This document shows positions 49,338 through 56,857 of a stretch of 56,888 nt of DNA, piece by piece. Source of the DNA: Chloroflexota bacterium (GTDB lineage: Bacteria; Chloroflexota; Ktedonobacteria; Ktedonobacterales; Ktedonobacteraceae); the NCBI GenBank assembly GCA_902812455.1, contig CADDZH010000022.1, forward strand, positions 1 to 56,888, read 5' to 3'. Position 1 is the first letter of the stretch. The number at the start of each line of letters is the position of its first letter. The notes below the pieces were generated by a model. The model was not told the DNA's origin. It saw only the letters and a list, made by a program, of their open reading frames with translations, and did not search any database. The translations under genes were made by a program, and so were the position numbers.

Positions 49338-49877
49338 TTACAGGTATCCTTGCTTCAACAACCGCTCCCCGGTCTGCATGAAGCCTTCTGCTGACGGAAT
49401 GGCAACATCTAGCGCGTCAGCTATGCGATCGATGATGTTAAAGAAGGCACAAACAACGAGGGCATCTTCGATGGCCTGTTCACTTACCCCCGCTGCACGT
49501 ACTGGCTTCACGTCCTCAGGACCTACCTCCTCTGGGGCCAGCGTGACTTTCTCCAGCAAGGCTAACGTTGCCCGCAACTTCTCGTCAATCGGGGCAGCAC
49601 GCCAGTTATCCAGGACTGCCGTGACCATCTCATCGTTGAGTGCCTTCGACGCAACTGCGCCGTGAGCGCCTGTTCAATAGGTACAGCTATTCGTGCGTGA
49701 GACGAAAGCAGCGAACAACTCCCGCTCACCCACGCTCCAGTCTGATGGGCCGCGCAGGACGGCCTCCAAACAGGCCGAGAACGGCTGGCCGAACAATTCG
49801 GGTCGATAGGACAGGACGCGCCGGATATCGGAGACCGGCTCATCTCGCCTCACCTGCTCAATCTTCTTGAGTCGCAC
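49338..49877 (-). CDS. AhpD/CMD-family peroxidase-related selenoprotein (in-frame UGA = Sec)
   Basis: The frame from ATG 49877 to the stop at 49338 is open except for one UGA at 49674-49676. Read through, it gives a single 179-residue protein of the CMD/AhpD peroxidase-related family: YRPELFGQPF, VLRGPSDWSVGERELFAAF, N-S-C65-T-Y-U68-T-G-A-H72, then EKLRATLALLEKVTLAPEEV and VVCAFFNIIDRIADALD. AhpD enzymes use CxxCxxxH, so UGA sits exactly at the second Cys. A hairpin fitting the bacterial SECIS model lies at 49642-49667. Sec would make a stronger redox centre. The start overlaps the preceding CMD gene by 20 bases. SelA/B/C/D are not in this window. Alternatives are a point nonsense mutation or a sequencing error; the intact downstream frame and hairpin argue against both. 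Confidence 0.8.
49642..49667 (-). promoter_or_regulatory. candidate bacterial SECIS element
   Basis: On the minus strand, 17 nt after the UGA there is an apical loop AGUU on a 6-bp upper stem (CGGCGC with GCGUCG, one G-U pair), then a 2x2 mismatch and three further pairs. The published bSECIS model needs an apical loop of 3-14 nt with G in the first two positions and 16-37 nt from UGA to loop; both hold here. Confidence 0.65.
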
Positions 49878-50214
49878 CTGTCTCTCCTTTCAGGGCCGCC
49901 AGCCCGCGCTCCAGTTGTACCATGCCAGCTCCGAGCGCTGCGCTCAATGTGATTTCGAAGATCGCATCCTCGCTATAGCCTGCCCTGCGCAGGGCCTCGA
50001 TATCTTCTCCAGTAGTCCTGTAGGCATAAAGAGCTACCTTTTTGACATACGCAGCCAGTTCCGGAGGAATCCGCTCGCCTTGCGGGGAGGAGTGAGAACT
50101 TAACTGAGCCGATTGCTCTTCAATCGCACGCCGTAATGTGGGATCGGTGGCTCCAGAGCTGTTCAGGATCGCATCGATCAGGTGCTGTATATATGGCGCA
50201 TATCGTGTATCCAT
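49858..50214 (-). CDS. carboxymuconolactone decarboxylase-like protein without CxxC
   Basis: 118 residues. The C-terminal half has the helical CMD pattern: ALYAYRTTGEDIEALRRAGYSEDAIFEITLSAALGAG. There is no Cys in the protein, so it cannot act as an AhpD-type reductase by itself. It overlaps the start of the selenoprotein gene by 20 bases and should be co-translated with it, which suggests a hetero-oligomer or an auxiliary function. The ATG has AAGGATGG upstream. Several family members are linked to peroxide or quinone stress. Confidence 0.82.
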   Translation of the reverse strand: MDTRYAPYIQHLIDAILNSSGATDPTLRRAIEEQSAQLSSHSSPQGERIPPELAAYVKKVALYAYRTTGEDIEALRRAGYSEDAIFEITLSAALGAGMVQLERGLAALKGETGATQED

Positions 50215-53689: not shown

Positions 53690-56600
53690 GTGAACGGATC
53701 AAATCAGGGACCAGGCTCCGGCTCAATCAAGTTCCTTACAGGCCCGCTTGCGGGAAGAACCTTCCAGATCAGTAAAGCAGTTACCACCATTGGCAGGGAT
53801 GCGACCAACGATATTGTGATCACTGATGATCGGAAGGTATCAAGAAATCATGCGCGCCTCATATGGAACAATGGGACGTGGAGCATTGAGAAACTCGCTC
53901 CGCAGAATGTCGTCACTGTGAACCGTCAATCTGTACAGCAGGCATCCATTTACGATAACTCTATTATCGGACTAGGCGAAGACACGTCCTTTGTCTTCCT
54001 GGTTCAGTCAGAAGTAGCGGCCCAGGTGCGACCGCCGGCGCCACCGCCACCTCCTCCTCAGCCAAGCAGGCCAATCCCTGTGGCGGCCCCCCAACCTCAA
54101 CCAGCTCAGGTGTATCAATCGGTAGCGCCCCAGCCCTTTGGCGGCTCTCTTGCGGGATATGCTGGCTCCGGCTCCCGCATGGCCACAGGCCCGGTTGGTG
54201 TTCGCCCGGATGGGACCGTCATTGCCCCGCTGTCAGAACTGGGGGTGCCCTCGCTAGAGATCAGCAGCAATGCTTATAGCGCCCGGCAAACATATCCCCT
54301 CAACAAAGATGTGATCAATATTGGCCGGGATGACTCCAATGATATTGTGATCAAGGATCGCATTATTTCTGGCCAGCACATCCAGATTGTGCGCCGGGGC
54401 AATCAATTCGAGCTTATTCACCCGCATCCATCCAGGCCAAGTACGCTCAATGGGCTGCTCTACCAGGGGCGCAAAATTCGTGGTGATGAGCCGTTCCGCA
54501 AAATACTGGCCCGTGGCGATATCTTCCGTATCGGTGATGAAAACGGTACGCTGATATCGCTCATCTTCAACGATGGCAGCGGCACGGAGCCAGAAGTGCT
54601 CGCTCCGGTTCATCCCATCAAACTGGATATGCCTGTCCTGACCATCGGGCGGGCGACGGATAATAACCTCGTGCTCCCTCATCCGCAGGTCTCTGCACAT
54701 CATGCGCGCCTGGTACGAGAAGGCGATACCTATCGCATACTGGATTTGAACAGCACGAATCATGTCTACGTCAACTCTGAATTGACAACCAATCGCCTGC
54801 TCAAACTTGGCGACGAGATCCGTATCGGCCCCTATCGCCTTGTCTTCGAGATGAACCAGTTGACGCAATACGATGAGAGCAACTTCATCCGCATCGACGC
54901 GATCGGCCTGAAGAAGGTAGGGAACAACAATGTTACCCTGCTCAACAACATCTCGCTGACTATTCCCCCGCGCAAATTTGTAGCGCTGGTCGGTGGCTCA
55001 GGGGCTGGCAAATCTACCTTAATGGATGCGCTCAACGGCTTTAGACCGGCGCAGGAGGGCAAAGTCCTCTACAATGGCCAGGATTACTACAAGAATCTTG
55101 CCGCCTTCAGCTCGCAGCTTGGCTATGTGCCCCAGGACGATATTGTTCACCGCGACCTCACCGTAGAGCGTGCACTGTATTATGCCGCCAAGATGCGCCT
55201 GCCCAGCGACTTCACGCCTGGGCAGATTCGCCAGCGCATTAACGAAGTGCTGGAAGATGTCGAACTATCAGCTCGGCGCAAGCTGCTCGTCAAGAAGCTC
55301 TCCGGTGGCCAGCGCAAGCGCGTCTCCATTGCCCTTGAACTGCTTGCCAACCCCAGCGTTCTCTTCCTCGACGAGCCGACCTCGGGCCTCGATCCGGGGC
55401 TGGATCGCAAGATGATGTTCCTCTTGCGCCGGCTTGCCGACAAAGGGCATACCATCATCCTGGTGACGCATGCCACCAACAATATCAATGCCTGTGACTA
55501 CATCTGCTTCCTCTGTGCAGGGGGGCGTATGGCCTTCTTTGGGCCTCCTGATGAGGCCAAGGCCTACTTCGGCAAGACCGACTTTGCTGAAATCTATAGC
55601 AGCCTGGAGCCAACCGAAGAAAATCCCAATATACCGGAAGAGGCCGAGGCACGCTTTAGAACCTCTGAGCAGTACCGAAAGTATGTAATTGAGCCATACA
55701 GAACCGGACCAGCTCAGACAGGCGCCATCACCAGGCCGCAGGTGCAGCCACTGGCCCGCGCAAAGCGTGGAAACCCGGTATCACAGTTCATGTTGCTTGC
55801 CCAGCGCAACGTCGAACTGCTCAGAAACAATACATCTAACCTGGCCATCCTGCTCTTACAGGCTCCCCTTATTGCGCTGGTCTTGCTCCTGCTGATCAGG
55901 TTTGAGATAGGAGCCGGCGTTTTCAATGCGAACAACGTCGTCCAATGCACGCCGCGCATTCATACAACCAGGCTCGCGCTTCCGCCTCAGTCGGGTGGTT
56001 TCATTGGCCCAACCAGCGTCTCGACCAATAGCAACGGGACGGTGGATTGTAACACAATCCTGAATTACCTCAAAACCGATGCGGTCGGCAAGCAATTCGT
56101 CAACACATTCTCGGGCAGCACAACGCAAGATAAGCAAAATGCAGCCTTGCAAGAGTTCATCGTCCCAGGCAATGCTCTTAACGCGCAGACAGCCCTCTTC
56201 ATCATTGCCTTCATTGCAGTGCTGTTTGGTTGTATTAATGGCACTCGCGAGATTGTCAAAGAGTTATCCATCTACCGCCGCGAGCGCACCGTCAACCTGG
56301 GGATCGTGCCCTACATCCTCTCCAAAGTCCTGGTACTTGGAGCGCTCGCCCTCTTCCAGAGCTTCTGTGTGCTCGTGATTGTGGAACTCTTTGAGCCCGT
56401 GCAACAGGGAGTGATCTTCTCGCCAGTTCTGGAAACCTATATCACCCTGGCCTTAACCGCCCTGGCGGGGTTGATGGTCGGACTGACTGCTTCTGCTTTC
56501 GCGGCTAATGAAGATACCGCTAATAGCCTGTTGCCGTTCCTGCTGATCCCGCAGTTGATCTTTGCGGGAGTTGAATTCCCGCTCAAGGACTGGCCCTTAC

Positions 56601-56857
56601 AGATCGTCGGAGCTTTGTTCTCAATGCGCTGGACTATGACGGCGCTGGGAACGTCGATCGGCTTGCATAGCGATAAGATTGGCGGCGATCAGTTGTTTGG
56701 GAGCGATACGACCTATCACCCGCAACTCTTCTCCACCTTCACTCAGGCGGATTCGGCTCAACGCATCCTGATCTCATGGGTGGCGCTGGTCATTCTTATT
56801 CTGGCGCTGGCGGTGCTCACTGGTATCGGCCTGAAACGCAAGGACATTCGCTCCTAG
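53690..56857 (+). CDS. triple-FHA ABC transporter, Rv1747-like
   Basis: 1055 residues, starting at GTG 53690 after AGGAGAG. Three FHA domains: about 15-105 (IGRDATNDIVI...VSRNHARL), 200-290 (IGRDDSNDIVI...ISGQHIQI) and 310-390 (IGRATDNNLVL...VSAHHARL). A Pro-rich linker lies between the first two. An ABCG-type ATPase follows at about 400-640: GGSGAGKST, LSGGQRKRV, FLDEPTSGLD. The C-terminal part has six membrane helices with a large extracytoplasmic loop. FHA domains bind phosphothreonine, so a Ser/Thr kinase probably controls the pump, as PknF controls M. tuberculosis Rv1747, which has two FHA domains. The second FHA has Gln instead of Asn/Arg (SGQH) and may be weak. Confidence 0.93.
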   Translation: MNGSNQGPGSGSIKFLTGPLAGRTFQISKAVTTIGRDATNDIVITDDRKVSRNHARLIWNNGTWSIEKLAPQNVVTVNRQSVQQASIYDNSIIGLGEDTSFVFLVQSEVAAQVRPPAPPPPPPQPSRPIPVAAPQPQPAQVYQSVAPQPFGGSLAGYAGSGSRMATGPVGVRPDGTVIAPLSELGVPSLEISSNAYSARQTYPLNKDVINIGRDDSNDIVIKDRIISGQHIQIVRRGNQFELIHPHPSRPSTLNGLLYQGRKIRGDEPFRKILARGDIFRIGDENGTLISLIFNDGSGTEPEVLAPVHPIKLDMPVLTIGRATDNNLVLPHPQVSAHHARLVREGDTYRILDLNSTNHVYVNSELTTNRLLKLGDEIRIGPYRLVFEMNQLTQYDESNFIRIDAIGLKKVGNNNVTLLNNISLTIPPRKFVALVGGSGAGKSTLMDALNGFRPAQEGKVLYNGQDYYKNLAAFSSQLGYVPQDDIVHRDLTVERALYYAAKMRLPSDFTPGQIRQRINEVLEDVELSARRKLLVKKLSGGQRKRVSIALELLANPSVLFLDEPTSGLDPGLDRKMMFLLRRLADKGHTIILVTHATNNINACDYICFLCAGGRMAFFGPPDEAKAYFGKTDFAEIYSSLEPTEENPNIPEEAEARFRTSEQYRKYVIEPYRTGPAQTGAITRPQVQPLARAKRGNPVSQFMLLAQRNVELLRNNTSNLAILLLQAPLIALVLLLLIRFEIGAGVFNANNVVQCTPRIHTTRLALPPQSGGFIGPTSVSTNSNGTVDCNTILNYLKTDAVGKQFVNTFSGSTTQDKQNAALQEFIVPGNALNAQTALFIIAFIAVLFGCINGTREIVKELSIYRRERTVNLGIVPYILSKVLVLGALALFQSFCVLVIVELFEPVQQGVIFSPVLETYITLALTALAGLMVGLTASAFAANEDTANSLLPFLLIPQLIFAGVEFPLKDWPLQIVGALFSMRWTMTALGTSIGLHSDKIGGDQLFGSDTTYHPQLFSTFTQADSAQRILISWVALVILILALAVLTGIGLKRKDIRS

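Follow-up and report, generated by a model that had tools for sequence, protein, structure and literature searches.

Two open reading frames (ORFs) follow one another in a common frame on the minus strand of a Ktedonobacteraceae (Chloroflexota) contig, and the question raised by this locus is whether they are separate genes, the remnants of one, or a single gene in which a UGA codon is read as selenocysteine (Sec). The sequence analysed, referred to below as the window, is a 56,888-nt stretch of contig CADDZH010000022.1 (assembly GCA_902812455.1), and the ORFs are at 49674-49877 (67 aa, GTG start) and 49338-49628 (96 aa). We are highly confident that 49877-49338 is one gene of an AhpD-like (TIGR01926) selenoprotein, in which the UGA at 49674-49676 is read as Sec. 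Computation establishes the common frame and a conserved gene pair, and the selenoprotein reading is supported because the UGA is conserved in relatives, a hairpin downstream of it covaries, and the genomes of relatives encode the Sec machinery; this reading is nearly as secure as a computational analysis can make it.

The codon at the predicted selenocysteine site

According to the original prediction, only the UGA at 49674-49676 splits the two ORFs, and the joined product carries the motif C-T-Y-U-T-G-A-H where AhpD enzymes have CxxCxxxH. Both statements agree with the translation: with TGA rendered as U, the region 49338-49877 of the minus strand encodes 179 residues from its GTG start to a TAA stop, a single TGA is the only stop within it, and the motif is present, the UGA being codon 68 (Sec68) at the second Cys of CxxC.

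Relatives were collected with two peptide patterns that do not include the Sec site, in a scan where each species was represented by one genome, and the best 80 of 215 relative-encoding stretches were kept, which biases the sample toward the same family branch. Conservation of the UGA in relatives had been proposed as a check of the prediction, and UAA or UAG in its place as evidence to the contrary. The codon aligned with Sec68 is TGA in 49 loci, TGC in 28, and TGT in three, so that Cys is the sole alternative and neither UAA nor UAG occurs at this codon in the 80 loci. Cys65, the first residue of the motif, is retained in all 49 UGA genes; in the 31 Cys genes this place is taken by Cys (14), Ser (15), or Thr (2), and Glu53 and His72 are present in all 80 loci. 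The ratio of nonsynonymous to synonymous substitution rates (dN/dS) is low on both sides of the UGA, and a second in-frame stop is absent from 48 of the 49 UGA genes. Record titles and tree labels place the UGA genes, many of them from metagenome-assembled genomes (MAGs), in Chloroflexota, Gemmatimonadota, Actinomycetota, Myxococcota, Acidobacteriota, Planctomycetota, and Thermodesulfobacteriota. The tree of Sec and Cys forms contains five label changes, two of them forced by starred branches, and does not settle the direction of change. The soil isolate Ktedonobacter racemifer has the gene (L001), with CAYU at the Sec site. Four genomes of the Ktedonobacter class (G001, G002, G102, and G113) have two UGA copies of the gene apiece. 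In another, G123, the gene is in two pieces on two contigs (L102 and L094), and both loci end at the stretch of the UGA and the hairpin, where the assembly seemingly breaks.

The hairpin downstream of the UGA

The putative selenocysteine insertion sequence (SECIS) is the hairpin CGGCGC-AGUU-GCGUCG at 49662-49647 of the minus strand, with a 6-bp stem and a 4-nt AGUU loop (49656-49653) that begins 17 nt past the UGA; the 16-nt hairpin alone has an energy of -8.1 kcal/mol. The limits given for bacterial SECIS elements are a loop of 3-9 nt with a G at one of its first two positions, a stem of 4-16 bp, a spacing of 16-37 nt, and an energy of at most -7.5 kcal/mol (PMC13188914), and the hairpin fits them in loop, stem, spacing, and energy, as had been predicted. 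No Rfam family matches the window at gathering scores, or the locus at E up to 10. The fold of the single sequence is unremarkable (z = -0.92 for a 53-nt piece, with 38 of 200 shuffles folding as well or better), and the case for a SECIS rests on comparison.

We compared 60 UGA loci (the 49 and 11 more from the Ktedonobacter class) with 34 Cys loci (the 31 and three more). Before these counts, L085, L087, and L093 (the same loci as L001, L002, and L011) and L094 and L102 (the pieces of one gene) were dropped; alignments A4 and A5 do not include L086 and L088 (UGA) or L096 (Cys), all three in minus orientation within their loci, and A6 does not include L012. In the UGA loci the two arms of the stem, CGGCGC/GCGUCG in the window, vary in step (CUCCGC/GCGGAG, CGCCGC/GCGGCG, CACCGC/GCGGUG), and the loop is GGUC in 48 and AGUU in 12. 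All six stem pairs are intact in 53 of the 60 UGA loci vs. five of the 34 Cys loci. Among 59 aligned UGA rows, the window included, 97.4% of cells are paired, which none of 500 shuffles reached, and 19 cells are altered on both sides; in 33 Cys rows 62.0% are paired. This contrast between UGA and Cys loci is the stronger argument, since the shuffles leave kinship in.

Trained on 57 other UGA loci, with the window excluded, a covariance model matches 49676-49644 at 47.6 bits (E 7.4e-14), while its next-best match within the window scores 10.5 bits. Over 507 kb of Cys loci, chance-like matches of this model away from the gene reach 19.7 bits, so that scores below about 20 bits mean little. Four Mycobacterium Cys homologues (L024:8166-8198, L030:8172-8204, L033:8172-8204, and L045:1242-1274), whose genomes contain tRNA-Sec, match the model at the Cys codon at 12-14 bits, within the range of these stray matches; possibly, they retain the fossil of a lost SECIS.

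As the hairpin pairs within the coding region, residues 73 and 77 of the protein are limited. The hexapeptide of residues 72-77 is HGAVAS in 44 of the 60 UGA genes, HAAVAA in seven, HSAVAE in three, and HTAVAV in two, with four singletons; thus, the 73/77 pairs G-S, A-A, S-E, and T-V together account for 56 of the 60. The 34 Cys genes have 16 different hexapeptides at the same place. The gene is therefore a clean case of a recoding signal within a coding region that restricts the permitted residue pairs.

Selenocysteine machinery and competing explanations

The nearest relative having the gene, G123, contains selA, selB, selD, and tRNA-Sec; its DNA matches the window at 82% identity along 551 bases that cover the partner gene discussed below and the beginning of the selenoprotein gene. 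Of the first scan, 79 genomes could be searched, and selB and/or tRNA-Sec was found in 48 of the 49 with UGA vs. 15 of the 30 with Cys (Fisher p 3.6e-7, uncorrected for kinship). Taken singly, selB is present in 43/49 vs. 9/30 and tRNA-Sec in 42/49 vs. 15/30. The selB cut-off was 242 bits, and five Mycobacterium matches are just below it (226-236), so that the selB count on the Cys side is an underestimate. The tRNA-Sec threshold of 52 bits was chosen after the scores had been seen, matches of about 47 bits being judged to resemble other tRNAs; it gives 39 of 50 first-batch genomes, and the cut-off of Rfam itself 41 of 50. Of the 47 genomes of the Ktedonobacter class, 11 bear the UGA gene, and all 11 contain selA and selD together with selB, tRNA-Sec, or both. 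This is consistent with the selenoprotein reading rather than telling, because the machinery is present in most genomes of the class in any case (tRNA-Sec 40/47, selB 41/47). The selD gene itself has one in-frame TGA in five of these 11 genomes (G123:C711, G080:C22, G099:C33, G011:C2, and G091:C171); a selenoprotein SelD is known (PMC2398784).

The proteins deposited in databases show how this gene is annotated elsewhere. Among the 120 homologues listed of 1138, the Sec place is part of CxxC in 81, is Trp in 14 and Arg in two, and belongs to SxxC in one; 22 have no motif, and 17 of these are 101-aa C-terminal pieces that start after the UGA. Such clipping by gene callers is what would be expected if the UGA were a true stop, leaving a pseudogene or two separate peptides, and TGA does terminate 14 of the 32 long ORFs of the window. 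However, a true stop would cut the catalytic motif at the identical codon in 49 of 80 loci, and it is at odds with the low dN/dS on either side and with the conserved hairpin, so that we regard this explanation as highly improbable. A sequencing error or a recent mutation of TGC or TGT, which might be suspected because 31 of the 80 loci have a Cys codon here, has the least to recommend it, to the point of being negligible, since the UGA is common to separate assemblies from several phyla and the hairpin that accompanies it is missing from most Cys genes.

The Trp and Arg residues of the deposited homologues could be taken to mean that the UGA is translated as one of these amino acids, by an alternative code or plain readthrough. 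In two of the Trp-bearing proteins (P0008 and P0036), Trp also stands at the partner-enzyme junction, as if the TGA stop of the partner had been read as Trp, and for this reason the Trp at the Sec place probably results from gene calling under table 4 (UGA as Trp). As an account of the locus, translation under table 4 or by readthrough was rejected and appears very unlikely: TGA is an ordinary stop in the window, no codon other than those for Cys replaces UGA in the 80 genome loci, and the relatives possess the Sec machinery.

Several observations weigh against reading the UGA as Sec. Two metagenome homologues have Arg at the Sec place (P0009, CVFR, and P0010, CPFR), which may reflect a real loss, an error, or an effect of gene calling. 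One Ktedonobacter robiniae locus (L002, 8001-8537) has, besides the UGA, an extra in-frame TAA at the place of Tyr24, from which the second UGA copy in the same genome (L098) is free. One of five measures of the hairpin alignment is not extreme, as the number of pairs changed on both sides in the UGA rows is matched by 39 of 500 shuffles, and the covariation score of the Cys rows is also high (reached by four of 500 shuffles), as kinship can cause. The evidence on machinery comes entirely from the genomes of relatives. The best matches of an unrelated window gene (53690-56857) are in two genomes of the Ktedonobacter class, G123 and G121, and each match is 77% identical along most of the gene; in G121, which is by this one gene as near as G123, selB is present, but tRNA-Sec was not found at E 1e-9, nor a homologue of the selenoprotein at E 1e-20. 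The UGA genome that stands apart from the other 48 (G022, a MAG) has no selB over the cut-off and a tRNA-Sec match of 47.2 bits, under the threshold. Finally, the whole case is computational, and the physical complex of the enzyme with its partner proposed below is suggested only by the facts that the two genes are adjacent and homologous and that AhpD proteins tend to form oligomers.

The enzyme, its partner, and known systems

With the Sec place given as C, the read-through protein scores 99.2 bits with TIGR01926 (cut-off 81.8) and 35 with Pfam CMD (cut-off 23). Its predicted structure, also with Sec as C, is all-helical and AhpD-like (predicted local distance difference test, pLDDT, 91.6), and it matches the fold of 6k40 of Deinococcus radiodurans (E 5.5e-9, template modelling score, TM, 0.76 by query length). 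The solved AhpD or peroxidase-related proteins 6k40, 2oyo, 2pfx, 3c1l, and 2prr are the best matches of the enzyme in both sequence and fold, and its alignments with 6k40, 2oyo, and 2pfx show Cys at the Sec place. Membership in three other families was rejected. The score with classical AhpD (TIGR00777) is 15.3 bits, far below the cut-off of 191.95, and NF041238 (AhpD_rel_CFYUT; 46 vs. 175) and NF053654 (GroundWater_YciW; 21.5 vs. 310), which are likewise (seleno)proteins, are matched weakly and far under their cut-offs. On plasmids, the locus has no megablast match, and tblastn returned 216 records, all below 60% identity, 12 listed rows of which are annotated as ordinary CMD or peroxidase-related proteins.

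The active-site pattern Glu-x11-Cys-x-(Tyr/His)-Cys/Sec-x3-His is present in the enzyme as Glu53, Cys65, Tyr67, Sec68, and His72. In the source organism, selenium would be incorporated when SelB and tRNA-Sec, guided by the hairpin, decode the UGA. Sec68 would occupy the position of the second Cys in CxxC, Cys65 would be the residue that resolves it, and Glu53, Tyr67, and His72 would form a proton relay; the predicted activity is that of a peroxidase or disulfide reductase.

The gene directly upstream (49858-50214, minus strand), here called the partner gene, encodes 118 aa and overlaps the selenoprotein gene by 20 nt; within it, AGGAG at 49884-49888 is the likely ribosome-binding site of the latter. 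The overlap and the complete lack of Cys in the partner were described correctly in the original prediction, which also took the protein for a CMD member. As no Pfam match was found at E <= 0.001, and a looser limit gives sub-threshold chance matches only, this label needed profile and fold evidence, which supports a CMD-like homology: hhalign of the partner against the AhpD-like enzyme gives a probability of 94.2 (E 1.1e-7), 34 of 88 aligned partner members, the one in the window not among them, reach E <= 0.001 with TIGR01926, and the same five solved proteins are the leading fold matches. The alignment gap in the partner spans enzyme residues 67-90, including Sec68 and His72, and the CxxC/His active site is absent, with no Cys in 55 of the 88 members and CxxC in one. 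The partner is thus an AhpD-like homologue that has lost the active-site segment, with a likely AhpD-like fold. Neither Pfam nor NCBIfam has a family specific to it. The pairing had been considered unusual, but it is the rule in this branch, the partner being next to the gene at 59 of the 60 UGA loci and 30 of the 34 Cys loci. Among ORFs of at least 100 aa within 8-9 kb, in the window and the 80 loci, no other neighbour recurs like the partner; gene-pair ORFs and antisense aside, the largest of 25 listed clusters is unannotated and occurs, on both strands, at 14 of 81 loci.

The partner would most likely assemble with the selenoenzyme into mixed oligomers, serving as a scaffold or docking the reductant or substrate. 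Tentatively, we propose a widespread two-subunit antioxidant enzyme, in which a catalytic AhpD subunit, often a selenoprotein, might be bound to a homologue without an active site that supports, docks, or controls it, and in which the SECIS within the gene would also dictate the residue pairs 73/77. If the partner does bind the enzyme, the two would make up a (seleno)enzyme that carries a pseudoenzyme as one of its own subunits, an arrangement of which no description was found in the literature searched. Because gene callers split, clip, or mistranslate the gene (of the 120 listed matches, 17 are clipped and 14 carry Trp), counts for soil Chloroflexota, Gemmatimonadota, Myxococcota, and Actinomycetota probably underestimate how often this selenium-dependent antioxidant enzyme occurs.

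Of the known systems, Mycobacterium tuberculosis AhpD and Pseudomonas aeruginosa PA0269 use a five-residue proton relay, Glu-Cys-(His/Tyr)-Cys-His, and the residues of our enzyme are spaced as in this relay, although M. tuberculosis AhpD has another chain topology (PMC3141380). A figure on the AhpC of another bacterium, whose Sec is decoded from UAG, mentions the Ktedonobacter racemifer protein D6TT72 (PMC5330540). AhpD-like CxxU families (COG2128) have been reported (PMC9312934, PMC1088965, PMC2398784), and an AhpD-like selenoprotein of TIGR01926 with CxxU is tabulated with MCB9421940.1 as an example (PMC13188914), in line with the statement in the original prediction that such selenoproteins had already been described. 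A search of the literature that left subscription papers mostly uncovered found no description of the partner, or of this branch in Ktedonobacteria. The published selenoprotein shares with our enzyme the NCBIfam subfamily, the CxxU motif with Sec in second position, and a bacterial SECIS downstream (PMC13188914). The accessible parts of these accounts name no partner gene (PMC13188914, PMC9312934, PMC1088965, PMC2398784). The enzyme is a member of an already known kind of selenoprotein, and what distinguishes its branch is the conserved partner without an active site.
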